A DNA stretch of 24,757 nt, from the IMG/VR virus record IMGVR_UViG_3300032046_002930, positions 1-24,757 of that record. One strand, 5' to 3'. Made by a program: the position numbers and the translations under genes. The notes under the pieces are model-generated. The model saw only the letters and a list, made by a program, of their open reading frames with translations, did not search any database and was not told where the DNA came from. The number at the start of each line of letters is the position of its first letter. The stretch's first letter is position 1. The DNA comes from a virus. This document shows, in pieces, positions 5,302 to 22,471 of this stretch.

Positions 5302-5344
5302 TGGTGACAATCACTGCCGGCTGCCAGTGATCATCTTGTCACCA
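5302..5344. repeat. TGGYGACA palindromic element, copy 3 (43 bp)
   Basis: A perfect 9-bp outer arm pair TGGTGACAA (5302-5310) / TTGTCACCA (5336-5344) encloses an inner stem TCACTG/CAGTGA (5311-5316, 5325-5330). It starts on the base after the connector stop codon and ends 10 bases before the terminase start. Confidence 0.88.
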
Positions 5345-7964: not shown

Positions 7965-8016
7965 TGGTGACACCGGGCGACAGCGGATCCACTCATCGTC
8001 CGCTGGCTTGTCACCA
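7965..8016. repeat. TGGYGACA palindromic element, copy 4 (52 bp)
   Basis: Arms TGGTGACA (7965-7972) / TGTCACCA (8009-8016) are perfect 8-bp inverted repeats. The inner stem is CAGCGGA/TCCGCTG (7981-7987, 7999-8005). It starts on the base after the stop codon of the 44-residue gene. Confidence 0.88.
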
Positions 8017-8399: not shown

Positions 8400-8623
8400 A
8401 AGACCTCATCGACTACGCCAAGCGACACAGCCACCTCTGGCGCCACCAAGGCGACCACTACTGGCTCGCCCGCCTACACCAGGAGGTGGCCGAGCTCACC
8501 CTCACCCTCGACCACCAGCACCAAGGCCCCAGAAACCACGAGCTCCTCCAAATAGCCACCATCTGCATCAACTGGCTGCACAAAGAACACGCCCTTCAAT
8601 ACCCTGAGGAGGACACATGCTGA
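8396..8623 (+). CDS. Small MazG-like or hypothetical protein
   Basis: A 75-residue protein. ATG 8396 follows AAGGAGGG. The core LARLHQEVAELTLTLDHQ...HELLQIATICINWL recalls the helical EVAEL...A...W pattern of short MazG-like nucleotide pyrophosphohydrolases. The second acidic metal-binding pair is not intact (ELLQ in place of ExxD), so activity is doubtful. The stop overlaps the lysin start (ATG 8617 inside the last codons). Confidence 0.65.
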   Translation: MKDLIDYAKRHSHLWRHQGDHYWLARLHQEVAELTLTLDHQHQGPRNHELLQIATICINWLHKEHALQYPEEDTC

Positions 8624-10695
8624 GACCAGGACTCCACTTCCACAACGGGTGCCCGATCACACCCGCAGACCTCGACATGATCCGCAGGTGGTCGCCCCTT
8701 AGCTTGCTGCTCGCCATGGAGCAGGTCGTAGAGTCACAGACAGAGACCCTACGCGACGCATGGGAGCTCGCAGGGCGACCACCCCTCGTGCTCCGCCGCT
8801 ACTACTCCCCGCCCAAGGCAGGCGGAGGCACCACAGCGTGGAGCACCCACGCCGACCAGACCGTCGCCCTCGCCCGCCGCTGCATCGACGCCGGCATCCC
8901 CGCCAAGTACCTCATGCTCAAACCCTTCAACGAACCCAACATGCCATCCTGGGCCCAGTGGGAAGGCTTCGGCGACACCGAGGACGACATCAAACGCTAC
9001 AACGAGGCATTGCTCCTGTTCATCTCCATCGCCAGGCGAGACCTCCCAGGCGTCAGGATCGGCGGGCCCCACCTTACCGTCGGCAACCGAGACGTCCGCT
9101 ACCCGAACGACCCCGAGGCGGTCTACTACTACCACGGACGCGACGGCAAATTCGCCAGCTCACCCTGCGCCGCAGCCCTCAGTGCACTCGACGTCCACTT
9201 CGTCCACACCTACGGCATGGCACCAGGCCAGTACAAAGACCCCGCCCACGGTCTGCGGTTCCTCGAGTACATGAAGTACCTCCAACGCAAGCCCGTCTAC
9301 ATCGTCGAGGGCAGCTACGGGATCGGCTCCGGACAGGCCGCAGACCAGAACACGGTCCGCGGCCAGGAGACCGTCGCCTACCTCCGGCTCCTCGGCGATC
9401 TGTACCCCCAGGTGAAGGGCATCGCCCTCTGGATCGGCGGAGACCCAGGCACCGGCTGGTTCGCCTTCTGCCACGCCAACGGTCCCAACCCCGAGAGTCA
9501 CAGGCCCGTCGTGTACGCAGTCGAGGCCGCCTGCATCGCGGACGGCTCCCAGCCTCAGCCGGCACCCGTCCCTGTCCCCACACCCACACCCGCACCGACC
9601 ACCCCAACCTTCGTCGACTGGCACGGACTCACCGGCCCCATGATCGCCGCCGTCACCATCACACCCGCCCCCAAACCCACAGAGCCACGCTGGGCCATCA
9701 CCAAGATCGAAGTCCAGCCCGACGCCGACAAGATGGTCCTCTACGCCGTCCTCCCGCCAGGTGCAGCCGTCCAGGCCCGCTTCTCCTGGTCCACCGGTGA
9801 CACCTTCAGCGCACCCAAAGCAGACCCCTACGAGCCAGACGGCGCGCGCCAGTGGGCAGCATCGATGCCCATGTTTGCACCGTGGGGCGCCTACTCCGTG
9901 GAGATCGTGGGCAACAGCGAGAAGGTCAGCGGGCTCGGGCTCTACGGGTCGGACCTGGACGAACGCTTCAAGGGCCATCATCCGGTACTCGTCTACTTCC
10001 AGCGCGTCACTGGACAGCCAGCCCCGCAGCCGCAGCCAGCGCCGGAGCCCGAGCCCGCTCCGACACCGACGCCCACGCCCACACCAACGCCCGCTCCCAC
10101 ACCAGCTAGGCCCTACGATCTAGCACACGCGTTCTACCCCCATGGCATCACCGACATGGTAGACCTCCGCAACGAGATAGAGTCGTTCTCCAACATGCCC
10201 GAGCTCGCCAAGCTCTGGCGCCCGTTCACTCTCATTCGCCTCGTGATACTGCACCACTCAGGATCAGACCTCGCCACGCAGACACCCCTCAGCATCGCCC
10301 GCTACCACGTCAGCAAGGGCGCCGCCACCATCCCCTACCACTTCTGCATCGGCTTCGACGGCCGGCTCTTCTGGACAGGCCGCCTCATGTGGAGACTCCC
10401 ACACAGCGGCAAGGAATCCACCAACGCCGAGGGAGTAGGCGTCTGCGTCCTCGGACACTACGACAAGCAGCACCCCACCCCCGCGCAGCTGATCACCCTC
10501 AGACGCCTGATCTGGCGCGTGCTCCCTGAGTTCTGCGCCGGAGCATGGGACCAGTACCGCCCCCTCTACGTCATCCCGCACGGCCGCCTGGTCTACACCC
10601 TCTGCCCAGGAGCAAACCTGCTCGACGCCTTCATCTACGCCGGGCCAGGACCCGCCCTGATGCCCCCCTTTCCCTTCGACGAGACTAACGAGTGA
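8617..10695 (+). CDS. Multidomain lysin: glycoside hydrolase, beta-domain, amidase
   Basis: A 692-residue modular cell-wall enzyme. Residues 1-300 look like a TIM-barrel glycosidase, with candidate acid Glu106 in FNEPN and candidate nucleophile Glu231 in YIVEGSYG. A Pro/Thr linker (about 310-330) leads to a beta-sandwich of about 120 residues, then a second Pro/Thr/Glu linker (about 468-498). Residues 500-690 are an N-acetylmuramoyl-L-alanine amidase of the Amidase_2 type: HHSG (His546/547), the KGAATIPYHFCIGFDG core, and the PHGRLVYTLCPG metal-binding end. Start ATG 8617 follows GAGGAGG. Two enzymatic domains on linkers suggest an endolysin or virion-associated lysin; the glycosidase family is not certain. 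Confidence 0.9.
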   Translation: MLRPGLHFHNGCPITPADLDMIRRWSPLSLLLAMEQVVESQTETLRDAWELAGRPPLVLRRYYSPPKAGGGTTAWSTHADQTVALARRCIDAGIPAKYLMLKPFNEPNMPSWAQWEGFGDTEDDIKRYNEALLLFISIARRDLPGVRIGGPHLTVGNRDVRYPNDPEAVYYYHGRDGKFASSPCAAALSALDVHFVHTYGMAPGQYKDPAHGLRFLEYMKYLQRKPVYIVEGSYGIGSGQAADQNTVRGQETVAYLRLLGDLYPQVKGIALWIGGDPGTGWFAFCHANGPNPESHRPVVYAVEAACIADGSQPQPAPVPVPTPTPAPTTPTFVDWHGLTGPMIAAVTITPAPKPTEPRWAITKIEVQPDADKMVLYAVLPPGAAVQARFSWSTGDTFSAPKADPYEPDGARQWAASMPMFAPWGAYSVEIVGNSEKVSGLGLYGSDLDERFKGHHPVLVYFQRVTGQPAPQPQPAPEPEPAPTPTPTPTPTPAPTPARPYDLAHAFYPHGITDMVDLRNEIESFSNMPELAKLWRPFTLIRLVILHHSGSDLATQTPLSIARYHVSKGAATIPYHFCIGFDGRLFWTGRLMWRLPHSGKESTNAEGVGVCVLGHYDKQHPTPAQLITLRRLIWRVLPEFCAGAWDQYRPLYVIPHGRLVYTLCPGANLLDAFIYAGPGPALMPPFPFDETNE

Positions 10696-10774
10696 GGCAC
10701 TAGACCCGTGGGAAGCCACCGCCCTACAGACCCGCCTCCACACAGACCTTGGCTTCCACGCCGACCTCGAGCAG

Positions 10775-10816
10775 TGGTGACGACAACGCCGCCCCGGCGA
10801 CGTCTGCCTGTCGCCA
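10775..10816. repeat. TGGYGACA palindromic element, copy 6 (42 bp)
   Basis: Arms TGGTGACG (10775-10782) and TGTCGCCA (10809-10816) with an inner stem CGCCG/CGGCG around CCC. The left arm includes the stop codon TGG-TGA of the open stretch that ends at 10780. Confidence 0.75.
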
Positions 10817-10825
10817 CGCCATCGA

Positions 10826-10867
10826 TGGCGTCCGCAGCGAAGAAGCTGCTGCTGCACTCTGTCACCA
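10826..10867. repeat. TGGYGACA palindromic element, copy 7 (42 bp)
   Basis: Left arm TGGCGTCC (10826-10833), right arm TGTCACCA (10860-10867), inner stem GCAGC/GCTGC. The symmetry extends outside as CATCGA (10820-10825) / TCGATG (10869-10874). Confidence 0.75.
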
Positions 10868-10921
10868 ATCGATGTACCCTTATCTCTACTTCTTCATTGT
10901 CTTTATTCGTTGTACTTATTA

Positions 10922-10980
10922 GTGGTGCCCCCAGCACCAGTGGTGGTGCCCAGGGCACCAGTGGTGGTGCCCACAGCACC
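10922..10980. repeat. Three 21-bp iterons, each a 15-bp palindrome
   Basis: GGTGCCCCCAGCACC (10924-10938), GGTGCCCAGGGCACC (10945-10959; perfect palindrome) and GGTGCCCACAGCACC (10966-10980). Starts are exactly 21 bp apart, so all lie on one helical face. The AGTGGT-type spacer is also repeated. Confidence 0.9.
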
Positions 10981-11005
10981 ACACCTCAACAGACCTTGGT
11001 GGATA

Positions 11006-11014
11006 TGTGGATAA
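11006..11014 (-). promoter_or_regulatory. DnaA box
   Basis: TGTGGATAA, the exact complement of the consensus TTATCCACA, 25 bp after the last iteron. A chance match of nine bases is possible but unlikely in an AT-poor genome, and the context supports it. Confidence 0.7.
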
Positions 11015-11032
11015 CTCTGTCACCACAGGATA

Positions 11033-11054
11033 CATCCTGAGCACCGTCGAAGGA
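11033..11054 (+). repeat. CATCCTGAG...TCGAAGGA repeat, copy 4, supplying an RBS
   Basis: CATCCTGAG (11033-11041) and TCGAAGGA (11047-11054). The right half is the Shine-Dalgarno of the tail gene at 11064. An orphan TGTCACCA half-site lies 7 bp upstream, the same order as at 399-437 and 8009-8040. Confidence 0.8.
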
Positions 11055-11063
11055 GGCCCAGCC

Positions 11064-13205
11064 ATGCAGGACATCGGTGCAGCCCTTCTAGCCGCCCAAA
11101 AGAAAGCCAGGACCAACCCCATCTTCCAGGTGCTCCTCAGCGACAAACTAGGGCCCCACCAACGGCTCACCTGGACCGCGCTCTACACCGACGCCACCGC
11201 CGACTACCCCCACGCCATGCACATCTGCTCCGACAACTCCATCGTCAGAGTCAGGAGCAACGCCGGCACCGCTGAGTACCAGCGCGTCACTTCACCCACC
11301 ACCCCCGCCCAGTGGACCGCCTGGACCGCCGGCATGGGCACCTGCTCCACCACCAATCAGATGGCCCTCTGCAGCTCCGGAGCCAAGGTCTGGTGGTTCT
11401 ACATCAACAACGCCAACACTCTCCTCTACTGCCGCGAGAGCGCCAACTACGGAGCCACCTGGGGCGCCACCACCACCGTGCACACCTGCGCCGGCGCCTA
11501 CCAACTCGAGAGCATCGCCGCCGCCCACCGCACAGGCACAGACGCCATCGTGTTCTACTCCACCAAAGACACCGCCACCCCCAACACCTGCAACCTCTTC
11601 TACCGCAAACAGACCGCCGGCGCCTGGGGCGCTGCCACCACCTGGGGCAAGACAGCCTGCCAGCAGATCAGGGGCCTCACCTGCCACAAGACCGGCGACT
11701 ATAACATGCTCTACGGAGCCTACGTCGACGCGTACACCTTTTTCGGCATCGGTCCCAGCGCCGGCGTCGCCTGGGTGTGGGCCCTCTACGCCATCGCCTT
11801 CGGCACCGGAGTAGACGTCACCCTCGACACCTGGGCTAACCCCGTCCTCCTCGAAAGGACAGACACCGGCACCGCCTTCGCCACCGCCTGGCCGTCCCTT
11901 ACCTACGTCGATATGTTCCGCGCCGTCTTCTCCGCCTACCTCGAGGGCGAGGAGTATTCCAGGCTCCTCCGCATGCAAGGCATCTACGGCGCCACGTTCC
12001 TAGAAACCACGTGGACCGACCCCTGGCCCTTCCTCGCACTCGCAGGCACCTACGGATCAGTCATCGACTACCGCGTCGGGGGAGACGGCTACGTCTACGC
12101 CTCCCACTCCAACCGAGCCTACCGAGCCAAGGCCGCAGGCGACGGCACCGTCGACCTCGGAGCCAGGCTCCTCAAGTACAGGATCCTCGACAGGTGGTCC
12201 GGCTGGAAGGGAGCCGGCGTATCCGAGGACTACGGACAGAACGTCACCGCCGAGATGGAAGGCGAGATATGGCTGGACAACCAAGACGGCGCCCTCAACA
12301 CCCTCGGCTCCGGAACCTACATCGCCGTCAAGCGCGGCTCCATGCTCGAGCTCCGCCGAGGCTACCACACCACCACCGGCAACCAATACGCAGACTGGCC
12401 CACCTTCTGGATCGAGGACTGGGAGTACGTCGCAGACTTCGAGGGCAAATCCTACCTGGTACTCTACGTCATCGGTGGCTGGGGCCTACTCGCATCGATG
12501 GCCGCTCAGAGGCAGTACCTATGGCTCGACAACGTAGACACCGTGTGGACCATCGCAGAACGTTTGTTCGCACTCGCCGGCTTCAACCTCAGCAGCGCAG
12601 GCGAGGCCTCCGCCGTCATCGGCACCCTCAAGCCAGCCATCAACATCCTCCCAGGCGAGGACCTCCGAGGCGCAATCCTCAAGGTCCTCTCCAAGGTCCC
12701 GGACTTCGTGTACTGGGAGGGACACACCCCCTACGTCAAGCAACTCGCCGCAGCCGAGGCTAGCGACTACACCTATGGTGGCGCAGGCAACCACGTCATC
12801 ATCGCCGGCAGGTACGGAGTCCGCACCCCAGGCTTCAACCACATCGAAGTGTTCTCCACCATGGACGCCTACGCCATCCCCGTCTTTGGAGACGAAGTAG
12901 ACTACACCGAGATCAACCTGGTCGGACACCGCCTCCAGAAAATCTTCGACTACGCCTACGACACCAACGCAGAGTGTGACGCCCGAGCCGTGGCTCAGCT
13001 GCGCAAGCACGACGCCACCAAGACCAGGGGCCAGATCGAGACGCTACCAAACCTCGGCTTGCAGCTACTCGACGCAGTGACCATCACCGACGCCAGGGCC
13101 GGCGTGACGTCACAGGTCTACCGCGTGAGAGGCATTGAAGAAACCTTCGACACCACCAAGCCGCAACTGGTATTCCGTCAGCGAGTGCAGCTCTCCGCCA
13201 GGTAG
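11064..13205 (+). CDS. Large tail protein: beta-propeller plus baseplate-hub-like domain
   Basis: A 713-residue protein. ATG 11064 follows AAGGAGG at good spacing; upstream in-frame starts lie within the origin and repeat sequences. Residues about 40-390 contain repeated segments with aromatic/Gly/Asp-rich turns (VWWFYINNANTLLYCRESAN; TDAIVFYSTKDTATPNTCNL; GDYNMLYGAYVDAYTFFGIG; GDGYVYASHSNRAYRAK) as in sialidase-like beta-propellers. Residues about 395-713 (ILDRWSGWKGAGVSEDYGQN onward) resemble hub or gp27/gpP-like tail proteins with repeated beta-barrels. A receptor-binding or host-surface role is likely. As the only large tail gene it suggests a simple short tail. Confidence 0.78.
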   Translation: MQDIGAALLAAQKKARTNPIFQVLLSDKLGPHQRLTWTALYTDATADYPHAMHICSDNSIVRVRSNAGTAEYQRVTSPTTPAQWTAWTAGMGTCSTTNQMALCSSGAKVWWFYINNANTLLYCRESANYGATWGATTTVHTCAGAYQLESIAAAHRTGTDAIVFYSTKDTATPNTCNLFYRKQTAGAWGAATTWGKTACQQIRGLTCHKTGDYNMLYGAYVDAYTFFGIGPSAGVAWVWALYAIAFGTGVDVTLDTWANPVLLERTDTGTAFATAWPSLTYVDMFRAVFSAYLEGEEYSRLLRMQGIYGATFLETTWTDPWPFLALAGTYGSVIDYRVGGDGYVYASHSNRAYRAKAAGDGTVDLGARLLKYRILDRWSGWKGAGVSEDYGQNVTAEMEGEIWLDNQDGALNTLGSGTYIAVKRGSMLELRRGYHTTTGNQYADWPTFWIEDWEYVADFEGKSYLVLYVIGGWGLLASMAAQRQYLWLDNVDTVWTIAERLFALAGFNLSSAGEASAVIGTLKPAINILPGEDLRGAILKVLSKVPDFVYWEGHTPYVKQLAAAEASDYTYGGAGNHVIIAGRYGVRTPGFNHIEVFSTMDAYAIPVFGDEVDYTEINLVGHRLQKIFDYAYDTNAECDARAVAQLRKHDATKTRGQIETLPNLGLQLLDAVTITDARAGVTSQVYRVRGIEETFDTTKPQLVFRQRVQLSAR

Positions 13206-13448: not shown

Positions 13449-13490
13449 TGGCGACACGGACCCCACGAGCTGCACCTGCAGCTGTCACCA
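13449..13490. repeat. TGGYGACA palindromic element, copy 8 (42 bp)
   Basis: Arms TGGCGACA (13449-13456) / TGTCACCA (13483-13490), inner stem AGCTGCA/TGCAGCT around CC. First of three tandem copies. Confidence 0.85.
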
Positions 13491-14363: not shown

Positions 14364-14435
14364 TCCGCAAAGGCCGGCGCTCAGTGGCGGGTCGCTTAAA
14401 GGGGGCGTTCCCGTTTTGGGGGGGCCTGCGGTGGT

Positions 14436-15242
14436 GTGGTGGGCCTCGGCCCTGGGGGCGCTGTCTCGCTCTCCTCTTCTGGTCAAATTGCGGTGGCTCG
14501 TCGGGGGGCGCGGCTCTCGGTGGCCCCGGTGCCCTGTGGGGGGTGGCTCGCGGTGGCCTTTGCCGCTTTCAACACTCGGGGGGTTCCGTCCGTGGCTGCT
14601 CTGCCTCTTCCGTCCGGTGTCGTGGCTCTTGTCGGCTCTCGCTCTCTCCCTGGCGCTCTGGGCGCTCGCGTTGGCCCTGTGGTGCGGTCCCTGCTGGGGT
14701 CCGGTCTCGCCGTTGCCGTCGGCTGCTCCGTTGGCGCTGATCAGGCGGTGTTGTCGGCGGCGCTGGCCTGGCTCTCCGGTCGGCCCGCCGCCGCTGTCTT
14801 CCTCTTGCTGCGCGTGTTCGCTGTGTTCGGTCCTGGCGGTGCGGGCGCGGTCCCGCCTGTCTCTGCCGTCTCGCCTGTGCTCTCTGCCGCCGCCGCCGGT
14901 GCCGCCGTCGTGTGGTCGGCGGGGGGTCCGCCGTCCGTCCCGGCTCGCGCGCGCCTTGCCCGCCGGTCGGCGTGCCTTGTGTCCGCGGTGGCGTCCGGTT
15001 GCGGTCTCGGTGGGCGCGGCTCTCTGGTGTGCTTCCTGGCGTCGCCGCTCTCGGCGGGGTCTCTCCTGTCGTGCCGCCTGGCCGCCGGTTTCGGTCTGCC
15101 CGTGCTCGTGCTGGCCGCCTTTGCCGGTGCGCCGCCTCTGCTGGCCCCCGGTGGCTCCTGGTCGCCCTGCTCCTGCTGTGGCCTGTGGTCGCCCTCGTGG
15201 CGTTGGGTTCCCGCTCCTCCGCTCCAGGCGCGTCTCTTCTAG
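14436..15242 (+). CDS. SLOG/DprA-like Rossmann-fold protein
   Basis: A 268-residue product if started at GTG 14436; the exact start is unsure. The SLOG (SMF/DprA-LOG) fold is recognisable from about residue 60: VVALVGSRSLP (nucleotide-binding loop), VAVGCSVGADQAVLSAAL, the ARLARRSACLVSAV helix, then LVCFLASPLSAGSLLSC and LAAGFGLPVLVLA. Such proteins bind nucleotides or DNA ends; DprA loads RecA on single strands, and other SLOG families sense nucleotide signals in defence systems. The coding strand is rich in G and T, unlike every other + strand segment here, and codons often end in T or G, so the gene is probably a recent acquisition. A reverse-strand open frame (15314-14322) is a low-complexity shadow. 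Confidence 0.75.
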   Translation: MVGLGPGGAVSLSSSGQIAVARRGARLSVAPVPCGGWLAVAFAAFNTRGVPSVAALPLPSGVVALVGSRSLPGALGARVGPVVRSLLGSGLAVAVGCSVGADQAVLSAALAWLSGRPAAAVFLLLRVFAVFGPGGAGAVPPVSAVSPVLSAAAAGAAVVWSAGGPPSVPARARLARRSACLVSAVASGCGLGGRGSLVCFLASPLSAGSLLSCRLAAGFGLPVLVLAAFAGAPPLLAPGGSWSPCSCCGLWSPSWRWVPAPPLQARLF

Positions 15243-15344
15243 CGCCGTCGCTCGCGTGCCCAGTGGGCCCGCTCGCTTTCGTGGTCTCTTATGGCCCTGG
15301 TCATCTGCGCCCATGGTGGCGCCAACAAAGAAAGGTGGTTCGCA

Positions 15345-15560
15345 ATGCTAAGCAGGTTCGATCCGTGGACGACAGGTACAGCGGCGGCCCTCGCGCCCCT
15401 GGTGGCAAGGGCAGCCCGCCGCGATGGTGGCACCGGCGCAGCGATCCGCGCGGCCGTCAGGATAGCGCGCCCCTACGATTGGCACCTGGCAGCCCTGGCC
15501 GTGGCAGCTCAACCGCCGAGGCGCAGGCACAACAACGAAGAGGAGACAAGAAATGACTAG
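15345..15560 (+). CDS. Hypothetical 71-residue protein
   Basis: ATG 15345 follows GAAAGGTGG. The product is alanine- and arginine-rich with two helices (TGTAAALAPLVARAARRDGG, GAAIRAAVRIARPYDWHLAA) and a polar tail (RRRHNNEEETRND). The last codons overlap the start of the SWIM gene by 8 bp. No family recognised. It is the first gene after the acquired SLOG gene with the normal C-rich composition of the phage. Confidence 0.65.
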   Translation: MLSRFDPWTTGTAAALAPLVARAARRDGGTGAAIRAAVRIARPYDWHLAALAVAAQPPRRRHNNEEETRND

Positions 15561-16200: not shown

Positions 16201-16680
16201 ATGCCAAGCAGACAATTGACCATAGAAACCTACTGGACAGCCGACACCCGCCGACACCACAGCCAGAAATCCCTGCTGAGACTCAAAGGCCGCTGGCTCC
16301 GCGAGGCCGGTTTCACGCCCAACACGACCGCCGCCGTCACAGTGCGCCCCCACTGTCTAACCATCACCACAGGAGGAAACCAAACCATGGCACAGCACCC
16401 GCCCACCCTCGACGACCTCATAGCGCAGGTCCACGCCGCAGTCGCCGCCGAACTCGACGCCCACCCGGAAGGCATCGACCCAAACACGCTGGCCACCACG
16501 CTTGCCCAAACCATAGCCCCCGCCGACCCCCAGGCCCTGCTAACCCTGGCAGCCCTCGACGACCCGGAACTCGGACAGCGCCGCCCCTGGCATCAACCAC
16601 TAGACGACGCCCCCCAGATCATCCGGGCCAATCTTATCGACAGGCTGTGGGAAGCCGCAGCCTACGCTATCCTGGACTAG
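16201..16680 (+). CDS. SymE-like domain fused in frame to a helical protein
   Basis: A 159-residue reading frame that looks like two former genes. Residues 20-58 (SQKSLLRLKGRWLREAGFTP to RPHCLTITTG) match the SymE-type pattern L+GRWLREAGF..n..V.V....L.I, a small AbrB-like fold known from SOS-induced toxins that bind nucleic acid. From residue 63 a new start (ATG 16387) with a perfect AGGAGG begins a 97-residue helical protein (PPTLDDLIAQVHAAVAAELD). No stop separates them. Either both the fusion and the C-terminal protein are made, or a stop codon was lost. SymE assignment is moderate. Confidence 0.65.
   Translation: MPSRQLTIETYWTADTRRHHSQKSLLRLKGRWLREAGFTPNTTAAVTVRPHCLTITTGGNQTMAQHPPTLDDLIAQVHAAVAAELDAHPEGIDPNTLATTLAQTIAPADPQALLTLAALDDPELGQRRPWHQPLDDAPQIIRANLIDRLWEAAAYAILD
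16371..16389 (+). promoter_or_regulatory. Internal ribosome-binding site and in-frame start
   Basis: AGGAGG (16371-16376) lies 10 bases before ATG 16387, inside and in frame with the SymE-like reading frame. It marks the old boundary of a second cistron and probably gives a separate 97-residue product. Confidence 0.6.
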
Positions 16681-19067: not shown

Positions 19068-19109
19068 TGGCGACAAAGGTCCCCCACCAGGTGGCGGATC
19101 CTGTCACCA
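19068..19109. repeat. TGGYGACA palindromic element, copy 12 (42 bp)
   Basis: Arms TGGCGACA (19068-19075) / TGTCACCA (19102-19109), with AAGGTCCC after the left arm and GCGGATCC before the right arm, as in copy 5. The inner palindrome is CCACC-AGGTGG. It lies 77 bp beyond the 3' end of the integrase gene. Confidence 0.88.
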
Positions 19110-20700: not shown

Positions 20701-20825
20701 AGCCCAACCGCCTCCAGCAGAAACCTAACCACCAACCCTATCCCGATCAGCACCATCAACCACCGAAAGGCGTCCTCATGCTCCTCCAGGAACCTCTCCG
20801 TGTAGCTACCCCTCCACTTCGCCAC
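20685..20825 (-). CDS. 46-residue membrane protein between repressor and integrase
   Basis: GTG at 20825 is preceded on the minus strand by GGAGGAG at 4-nt spacing. The product has a charged N-terminus (AKWRGSYTERFLEEHEDAFR), one membrane segment (WLMVLIGIGLVVRFLLEAVG) and ends LWPWP. It overlaps the repressor end by 20 bp and the integrase start by 16 bp, so the three genes are translationally coupled. The reading is too tidy to be chance: start, RBS, hydrophobic segment and stop all fit. A small inner-membrane protein made with the repressor in the lysogen could act in superinfection exclusion; that is inference. Confidence 0.75.
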   Translation of the reverse strand: MAKWRGSYTERFLEEHEDAFRWLMVLIGIGLVVRFLLEAVGLWPWP

Positions 20826-21222
20826 GCGACTCCTCCATCATCCGCCGCTCACGGCGCAATAGCACCATCTCGCCGTACTGCAGCCACTCCCTCAGCTCTC
20901 CCTCGTCCATGCTCGCCACCAGCACCCGCACAGCCTCCCCCAACCCCTCTAGTTGCTCCCACCTTACAACAGACGTTGGCAGACCAGCCAGCCTCAGGAT
21001 GTCGCTCTCGGGCACGCCGAAGTACCGCCCCAACCGATACGCCGACGCACTAGACGGCCTCCGAACCCCCTCCACATAGCTGTTCATCGTGTTCCTCGAC
21101 AGACCAGCCTCCACGCTGGCCCGGGTCACCCCCTTCCCCTTCAGCGCACACGCCTTCGTCAAGAACTCCGAGAGATCGTGACAATCCTGAGCGAGCCGGC
21201 TGATCTCCTCTTGCACGGTCAT
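20806..21222 (-). CDS. XRE-family repressor (CI-like)
   Basis: A 138-residue DNA-binding protein. ATG 21222 is chosen since it follows a G-rich RBS (GGGGTGAGGGG); longer readings run into the promoter region. The helix-turn-helix lies at about 25-75: LTKACALKGKGVTRASVEAG, LSRNTMNSYVEG, SSASAYRLGRYFGVPESDIL. The C-terminal part is helical (WEQLEGLGEAVRVLVASMDE) with no protease-like Ser/Lys pair, so induction by self-cleavage is not expected. It is divergent from the Cro-like gene at 21447, the standard immunity layout, and is the first gene of the leftward operon with the membrane protein and integrase. Confidence 0.88.
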   Translation of the reverse strand: MTVQEEISRLAQDCHDLSEFLTKACALKGKGVTRASVEAGLSRNTMNSYVEGVRRPSSASAYRLGRYFGVPESDILRLAGLPTSVVRWEQLEGLGEAVRVLVASMDEGELREWLQYGEMVLLRRERRMMEESRGEVEG

Positions 21223-21275
21223 CCCCTCACCCCCCTTCTTCCAGCAAAGCGACGCCGGCCGCTCCAACGCCACCG

Positions 21276-21304
21276 ACTCTACACCACATATCAACATTTG
21301 ACAA
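21276..21304 (-). promoter_or_regulatory. Leftward promoter of the repressor operon
   Basis: On the minus strand, -35 TTGTCA (21304-21299) and -10 TAGAGT (21281-21276) are spaced by 17 bp. The -35 overlaps that of the rightward promoter by five bases, so the two cannot both be occupied. Confidence 0.65.
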
Positions 21305-21326
21305 CATCCACGATTGGTGTTATAAT
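21298..21326 (+). promoter_or_regulatory. Rightward early promoter (perfect sigma-70 consensus)
   Basis: TTGACA (21298-21303) and TATAAT (21321-21326) with an exact 17-bp spacer. It drives the Cro-like, replication and following genes, and must be tightly repressed in the lysogen. Confidence 0.93.
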
Positions 21327-21341
21327 ACCAACCGGTGTTGG
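21314..21341. promoter_or_regulatory. Overlapping operators
   Basis: Two inverted repeats share half-sites: TTGGT (21314-21318) / ACCAA (21327-21331) spans the -10 box in an 18-bp near-palindrome, and CCAAC (21328-21332) / GTTGG (21337-21341) covers the start region. They are the likely targets of the repressor and the Cro-like protein. Confidence 0.7.
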
Positions 21342-21342
21342 C

Positions 21343-21528
21343 ATGATCGCGAAAACCAGCCATATCAGAACACAGCAAACCGACCACCTCTACCAGTTCG
21401 TGACGGTGCTCGCCGAGATCCTACTAGACCAGGAGAGGACCACACCATGCCACCAGCAAACCCGTGTCCCCCGCAAACCGCCTTCCGCCACTGGCTCCAA
21501 AGCAGAGGACTCAAGCATGCCTGGGTAG
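21343..21528 (+). CDS. Possible near-leaderless leader ORF
   Basis: ATG 21343 lies about 17 bases after the -10 box, so the transcript would start only about 10 bases upstream and no Shine-Dalgarno is present. The first 35 codons look protein-like (QQTDHLYQFVTVLAEILLDQ); the rest overlaps the Cro-like gene in another frame and looks random. A 61-residue product is possible, but this may also be an untranslated leader. Confidence 0.3.
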   Translation: MIAKTSHIRTQQTDHLYQFVTVLAEILLDQERTTPCHQQTRVPRKPPSATGSKAEDSSMPG

Positions 21529-21659
21529 CGACCCAGCTCGGCTACACCGCCGAATACTTCTCCCGCGTCCTCAGGGGCACGACCCCCCTGACCGCCGAGT
21601 TCCGCCAGAGATGCCGACACCGCCTCTCAATACCCGACGCCGCGTGGGACAAGGAATGA
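21447..21659 (+). CDS. Cro-like helix-turn-helix protein
   Basis: A 70-residue protein. ATG 21447 follows CAGGAGAGG. The sequence FRHWLQSRGLKHAWVATQL-GYTAEYFSRVLRG is a helix-turn-helix of the XRE/Cro type (AWVATQLGYTAEYFSRVL as the two helices), and the protein contains little else, as in Cro. It is the first well-supported gene under the rightward early promoter and its stop overlaps the replication gene start (ATGA, 21656). It probably represses the leftward repressor promoter and tunes its own. Confidence 0.83.
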   Translation: MPPANPCPPQTAFRHWLQSRGLKHAWVATQLGYTAEYFSRVLRGTTPLTAEFRQRCRHRLSIPDAAWDKE

Positions 21660-22471
21660 CAGGCCAACCACTTGAAGACATCGACTGTCAGGAAGTCACC
21701 CTCGAACCCACCCTGCACGGCTACCACGTCGCCTGGAACTACGGCCAACACTACTGGCTCCCCATCCTCGGCCCCGTCCCCTGGTGCACCTGGCAAACCC
21801 TGATCACCTTTTGCTTCGGACGCCGCGACTCCTGCTGGCCCTCCATCTCCCTCCTGGCCGACATCGCCGCCAAGGGAAACCGCAACCTCATCAAAGGCCG
21901 CTGGGCACAGAACCCCGAGCACCGCTTCAGGAGAAAGGGAGCCGTCGAGATCCTCGAAGACCACGGCCTGATCAGCATCGAACCGCGCGGCCCGGACGAC
22001 AAAAGGTATACGTTCCACGTCCTCAAGGAGCCACCGCTGCTCACCCCCGAGCAGGTGCAGACCCTACCGCCCAGGCTTCAAACCATGCACGCCGCCCTGC
22101 TTCACAAGTGCGGCATCAACCCCGACGACCACGCAGCCAAAGCCCAACGCGTCACCCCTGGTGCCCCCAGCACCACCCCCGACTACGCAGACCTCCGCCA
22201 ACTCGAGGAGGACTGGCGAACCATCCTCACCGACTGCCAAGCACAGATGACACCGGCGAACTACCGCACCTACTTCACCGGCACCACTCCCACCGCCTAC
22301 GACCCCACAACGCGCACGCTCACCGTGGAGGCGCCCAACCCCCTGATCGCCACCTGCCTAGAACGCCAGTTCTCCCAACTGGTGACACGCGCCGCCGCCG
22401 AGCTTGACATCCGCATCGACGGTTCCCCCATCCAGGCCGTCACCTACACCGCCAGGAGACTCAGCAAATGA
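21656..22471 (+). CDS. Replication protein with winged helix and DnaA-N-like domain
   Basis: A 271-residue protein. Residues about 40-125 look like a winged-helix DNA-binding domain (SCWPSISLLADIAAKGNRNL, AVEILEDHGLISIEP). Residues about 183-262 match the DnaA N-terminal domain pattern: W+TIL.....QMTPANYRTYF, a loop, RTLTVEAPNPLIATCLERQF, and a last strand IQAVTYTARRL. DnaA domain I binds DnaB helicase and partners, so this protein probably recruits host helicase to the phage origin, as lambda O/P do. A 15-bp palindrome identical to the first iteron at 10924 lies inside the gene (22160-22174). Start overlaps the Cro-like stop; stop overlaps the next start. Confidence 0.78.
   Translation: MTGQPLEDIDCQEVTLEPTLHGYHVAWNYGQHYWLPILGPVPWCTWQTLITFCFGRRDSCWPSISLLADIAAKGNRNLIKGRWAQNPEHRFRRKGAVEILEDHGLISIEPRGPDDKRYTFHVLKEPPLLTPEQVQTLPPRLQTMHAALLHKCGINPDDHAAKAQRVTPGAPSTTPDYADLRQLEEDWRTILTDCQAQMTPANYRTYFTGTTPTAYDPTTRTLTVEAPNPLIATCLERQFSQLVTRAAAELDIRIDGSPIQAVTYTARRLSK
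22160..22174. repeat. Fourth iteron palindrome, inside the replication gene
   Basis: GGTGCCCCCAGCACC, identical over 15 bases to 10924-10938. It may be a binding site for the replication protein within its own gene, as lambda ori lies in O, or a handcuffing site. Confidence 0.7.

Follow-up and report, generated by a model that had tools for sequence, protein, structure and literature searches.

A probable iteron-type replication origin in the late region of a Chloroflexota phage, with an iteron inside the initiator gene

The 24,757-nucleotide stretch of viral DNA analyzed here (the window; record IMGVR_UViG_3300032046_002930) very probably carries, at positions 10875 to 11014, the origin from which a circular temperate Chloroflexota phage replicates. 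The phage initiator, Rep, and the host DnaA would both act at this site, and the cassette would ancestrally have lain in the rep gene. This reading is built on sequence comparison. Origins of this kind are already known, and what is new is that the cassette sits in the late region and that rep retains a trace of it. A search of the literature on replication in this Chloroflexota phage lineage retrieved no paper, and the present analysis provides a testable origin and initiator for it. Within one family, the origin would be translated into a protein linker in certain members and would stand free, far from the gene, in others. The joining of a phage initiator to the helicase-loading domain of DnaA also opens the role of this domain I, in initiators of plasmids as well as phages, to direct tests.

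The phage genome and its host

The record presents a 24-bp terminal repeat at its ends, and the portal gene reads in frame across them. In the relative G003, whose own terminal repeat measures 127 bp, the portal gene is uninterrupted. The repeat and the portal gene that spans the ends show that the genome is circular, and the record is apparently a complete temperate phage genome of ~24.7 kb. It contains genes for portal, capsid, terminase, an amidase-bearing tail/lysin protein, and a serine integrase, together with a repressor-like gene. The host is probably a member of the Chloroflexota, because all 41 of the 41 relatives of the terminase found in genomes come from this phylum. Searches for DNA similarity to known phages, for the tail protein in known phages, and for Rfam families gave no match.

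The proposed origin is flanked upstream by the gene for the tail/lysin protein with a C-terminal amidase domain (8617 to 10695, plus strand; Amidase_2, E 2e-10) and downstream by a gene referred to here as the tail gene (11064 to 13205, plus strand), which has no family match and is conserved in relatives. An HTH repressor-like gene (20806 to 21387, minus strand) is divergent from rep and the early operon, the latter having a consensus promoter, TTGACA-17-TATAAT, with 12 of 12 matches (21298 to 21326, plus strand). The gene of a small HTH protein (21447 to 21659, plus strand; HTH_31, E 6e-6, just under the cutoff) overlaps the start of rep. Elsewhere in the window, positions 14416 to 15351 show an AT skew of approximately −0.97 and 75% GC on the plus strand and encode a low-complexity, possibly collagen-like protein, and positions 16201 to 16680 encode a SymE-toxin-like protein (PF08845, E 5e-11).

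A second element, dispersed and mostly intergenic, takes the form TGGNGACA-N26/27-TGTCNCCA or TGGNGACA-N36-TGTCNCCA, with spacings about one helical turn apart. It is found in the window at 355 to 406, 5302 to 5344, 7965 to 8016, 13449 to 13490, and 19068 to 19109, as well as in G003, G004, G005, L155, L228, and L229. Its half-sites number 21 in the window versus 2.4 expected from mononucleotide shuffles, and several copies are folded into hairpins with z as low as −3.9. These copies could be scattered repressor sites, sites for a late regulator, or REP-like hairpins.

Architecture of the late-region cassette

The original prediction named a 47-bp AT-rich tract, three palindromic iterons spaced by 21 bp, and a perfect DnaA box, and all three elements are present. 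The T-rich tract (10875 to 10921, 47 bp) has a GC content of 29.8%, versus ~64% for the genome, and no other part of the circle is as unstable, whether segments of 40, 47, or 60 bp are compared. It is the proposed DNA unwinding element and adjoins the repeats. Iteron 1 (TGGTGCCCCCAGCACCA, 10923 to 10939, an exact palindrome), iteron 2 (TGGTGCCCAGGGCACCA, 10944 to 10960), and iteron 3 (TGGTGCCCACAGCACCA, 10965 to 10981) are 17-bp palindromes of the form TGGTGCnnnnnGCACCA, spaced by exactly 21 and 21 bp. The exact palindrome TGGTGCnnnnnGCACCA has four matches in the genome, three in the array and one in rep, versus none in 100 dinucleotide shuffles. An iteron-type theta origin is expected to contain at least three direct repeats at a spacing of about two helical turns next to an AT-rich unwinding element, and this is the arrangement found, with three copies in the window and three or four in relatives.

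TTATCCACA (11006 to 11014, minus strand) is a perfect DnaA box, and the window has no other. It is preceded by a degenerate box-like site, ATATCCACC (10998 to 11006, minus strand), at the place where two boxes, full or nearly so, occur in G005 and L229. A lone DnaA box can arise by chance; its conserved position speaks against this, as the box starts 41 bp past the start of the last iteron in the window, G003, and G005 alike. The array is indeed far from rep, as originally noted; on the circular genome the distance is ~11 kb in one direction and 13.5 kb in the opposite one, rather than 10.6 kb. The cumulative skew that had been suggested as a check does not mark the site; GC skew is negative almost throughout the genome and has no minimum there.

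Conservation of the cassette at the late locus

Relatives have the predicted iterons near the tail gene. In G003, G004 (with its near copy G002), and G005, the order of T-rich tract, iterons, DnaA boxes, and tail gene is maintained, with three or four iterons at an exact spacing of 21 bp and one or two DnaA boxes. The Chloroflexota prophage contig L229 carries a degenerate cassette at the late locus, T-rich tract and boxes included. In iteron 1 of G005 (TGGTGTCCTGGACACCA), both arms are changed and the palindrome is kept by paired changes (TGGTGT..ACACCA), which supports symmetric recognition. This conservation, together with the presence of the motif in the rep genes of distant homologues (as detailed below), supports the prediction of an iteron-type origin between the lysin and tail genes.

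The array is absent before the tail gene in G001, L153, L155, L228, and L232. In prophage L228 and contig L155 the tail gene is present and the array missing, but neither contig includes Rep, and therefore nothing is concluded from them about a link between the array and Rep. Complete relatives are few, and the prophage contigs end short of rep, with L229 stopping before its place. A broad scan of viral contigs for a 21-bp GGTGCC pattern retrieved 119 stretches, among which a palindromic array with DnaA boxes occurs only in the known relative G003. The left end of contig L146 (1 to 2400; G001) has PEP-CTERM-like cellular proteins beside phage genes, suggesting an integrated copy.

The Rep initiator

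The rep gene (21656 to 22471, plus strand) encodes a putative winged-helix-type N-terminal half, a linker, and a C-terminal DnaA domain I. Its frame most likely starts at the ATG at 21656, giving 271 amino acids, and not at 21464. Rep matches a PHROG replication initiation family. The N-terminal half is winged-helix-like in an AlphaFold model and has weak matches to RepA-type N-terminal domains, and its match to Pfam HTH_36 is below threshold. The first model was poor in this half and was bettered with a second alignment; together these data suggest a winged helix.

The assignment of the C terminus as a genuine DnaA domain I is confident and upholds the prediction of a DnaA-N-like phage protein. 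Foldseek retrieved the DnaA domain I structure 4tps (E 1e-4, TM score of 0.92 to the target), and a profile search against the PDB gave a match at 1e-10. DnaA_N is matched by six of six homologues (best 2e-9), and by the window Rep alone at 4.7e-5, just under the cutoff. The residues with which Escherichia coli DnaA contacts DnaB are not obviously conserved in Rep when compared by eye.

The first search for Rep in genome contigs gave no match, and the homologues came from the terminase search and from six-frame searches. In Chloroflexota genomes, the Rep profile matches many open reading frames of 425 to 600 amino acids through DnaA domain I alone, which are taken to be host dnaA genes, judging by their length. 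These dnaA-type loci are rich in TTATCCACA (19 versus 0.4 expected) and TTATCCCCA (12 versus 0.35 expected), the same boxes that occur in the window phage and its relatives. A set of Rep homologues (L284, L285, L288, L289, and L167) shows a swapped domain order, with DnaA domain I first, and in L285, L288, and L289 the winged-helix half is duplicated.

Iterons within rep genes

The linker-coding part of rep contains one iteron (22159 to 22175), which agrees with iteron 1 at all 17 bp, rather than at the 15 bp originally reported for this copy, and encodes PGAPST. Distant Rep homologues carry the same motif, at a spacing of 21 to 22 bp, within their own rep genes, in the segment that codes for the interdomain linker. 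The rep gene of G008 shows a box-like TTATCAACA followed by three 21-bp-spaced iterons and an A-rich tract, an in-gene cassette that is the reverse complement of that in the window; for G008, the link between the rep contig and the tail-gene contig is unproven. The array in G036 comprises at least five degenerate units at 21-bp intervals, with an AT-rich stretch after them, and in G012, TGGTGCACCCAGCACCA and further units are followed by an A-rich stretch, while G014 has one unit. The window genome (G000) and G003 have one in-gene copy each. In the swapped-domain homologues L167, L284, L286, and L287, dyad repeats lie directly past the rep stop codon (the last three identified by eye).

A weight matrix built solely from 14 late-region sites was applied to 11 rep genes, and its top match falls in the rep linker in 10 of them. 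In nine of the 11 (G000, G003, G008, G012, G013, G014, G036, G067, and G156), no more than 5 of 300 synonymous-codon shuffles attain the single or triple score of the actual gene, with neither statistic corrected for multiple testing. G095 and G004 fail this test; the in-gene signal is weak or absent in G095 and G067, and G004 has no in-gene copy. Given that the same motif recurs in the rep genes of homologues, it is very probable that the iterons are the sites at which Rep would act in an origin.

In the phylogenetic tree, G008, with its in-gene array, is sister to the group of G004, G000, and G003, which have the late array, with support of 100/99 and 99/98. This is most simply explained if the array first lay inside the gene and the late-region array arose once. 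As the tree was rooted at its midpoint, the direction of the move is one that we infer.

Proposed mechanism and alternative explanations

Using its putative winged-helix half, Rep would bind, probably as dimers, to the three palindromic iterons spaced by 21 bp and would melt the adjoining T-rich tract. Host DnaA would occupy the box or boxes located ~37 bp from the last iteron, and the DnaA-domain-I tail of Rep would recruit or share the host helicase-loading machinery, domain I being the likely contact. We infer Rep binding, melting of the tract, DnaA participation, and helicase recruitment from iteron plasmids (PMC4980987) and from the domain content of the protein. The cassette would ancestrally have been located within the linker segment of rep, whereas in this clade the working copy would be that of the late region, between the lysin and tail genes, with one in-frame iteron remaining in rep as a trace of the former array. 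The fuller proposal, that the cassette left its initiator's coding sequence for the late region, with one in-frame iteron staying behind, and that Rep meets DnaA by a domain-I-to-domain-I contact, is offered only tentatively.

The dyads are typical of sites for dimeric regulators and lie at least 83 bp upstream of the gene start, which would suit operators bound by the HTH repressor, the small HTH protein, or Rep in the control of the late tail gene. This alternative, already raised with the original prediction, is weakened by the relatives in which the tail gene occurs without the array and by the lack of a sigma-70-like promoter within 10600 to 11200. The region of the repressor gene with the consensus promoter is far off and devoid of this motif. 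Control of the tail gene would account neither for the T-rich tract and the DnaA boxes nor for the motif in the rep genes of distant phages, and is improbable.

The motif in rep could instead mark the main origin, the late array being a second Rep site that works as a fork barrier or as a late origin triggering concatemeric replication. The two-site layout of phage SPP1, in the initiator gene and the late region, offers a precedent (PMC6316719). Little weight is given to this arrangement, because rep contains only one iteron in the window and G003 and none in G004, whereas array, T-rich tract, and DnaA boxes are all found at the late site. Plasmid iteron arrays can also act in copy control and partition, and the array might therefore be a site of incompatibility, handcuffing, or partition rather than an origin. 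This is very improbable: no partition gene was recognized among the scanned proteins, the phage has a serine integrase, and the unwinding element and DnaA boxes would be left without explanation.

Comparison with known systems

In the Bacillus phage SPP1, initiator sites are located in gene 38 (gp38) and in the late region (oriL/oriR), ~13 kb apart, and oriR is a proposed fork barrier or late origin for the switch to concatemeric replication (PMC6316719). The window phage similarly has initiator sites in the initiator gene (22159 to 22175) and in the late region (10923 to 10981) of a circularized genome, and both phages combine direct repeats with an AT-rich unwinding element. In SPP1, however, both sites are origins with similar repeats and an unwinding element, whereas the in-gene site of the window consists of one iteron and is not among the least stable segments. 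In this comparison, the window phage is characterized by DnaA boxes beside its array and by an initiator bearing a DnaA domain I.

The HTH plus DnaA_N plasmid initiators of Bacillota share with Rep a C-terminal DnaA domain I and have a winged-helix half, to which the probable winged-helix half of Rep would correspond. The comparators were RepA of the pHT01/pBS72 type (L327), a Bacillus halotolerans plasmid (L324), and gp4 of the Brevibacillus phage Jenst (L323); the replicon of the pHT01 vector is that of pBS72. Rep belongs with this type by its C-terminal domain and by sequence homology of its N-terminal half: residues 6 to 177 match Jenst gp4 in tblastn (E 4e-6), and homology to pBS72 RepA is found only by way of Jenst. 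In Jenst, the linker part of rep includes a pair of perfect DnaA boxes and a pair of repeats spaced by 22 bp (L323, 2031 to 2163), and L324 has three DnaA-like boxes and 22- to 24-bp repeats directly after rep. In these systems the boxes are found within rep or next to it, in contrast to the window array, which is ~11 kb away from it. The Jenst boxes and repeats fall inside an annotated replication initiation gene and are in themselves a probable unannotated origin.

Iterons within the initiator coding sequence, as in G008, G012, and G036, are also known from phage lambda, the ori of which lies inside gene O (PMC6022878). No protein similarity was found between lambda and the window phage, and the lambda ori is not shifted to the late region. 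In RepA_N plasmids such as pSK41, an N-terminal winged helix is followed by an origin in the linker part of rep and a C-terminal host-interaction domain, which in pSK41 is DnaD-like and binds DnaG (PMC5703833). The Rep family would have the same order of winged helix, linker-encoded origin, and host-interaction C terminus, but its C-terminal domain is a DnaA domain I. Membership of Rep in RepA_N was rejected, as six homologues gave no PF06970 match at E values up to 1. The cassette layout itself is shared with RK2 oriV, where DnaA boxes, iterons, and an unwinding element stand in a row (PMC4980987), although the initiator differs and the window is that of a phage.
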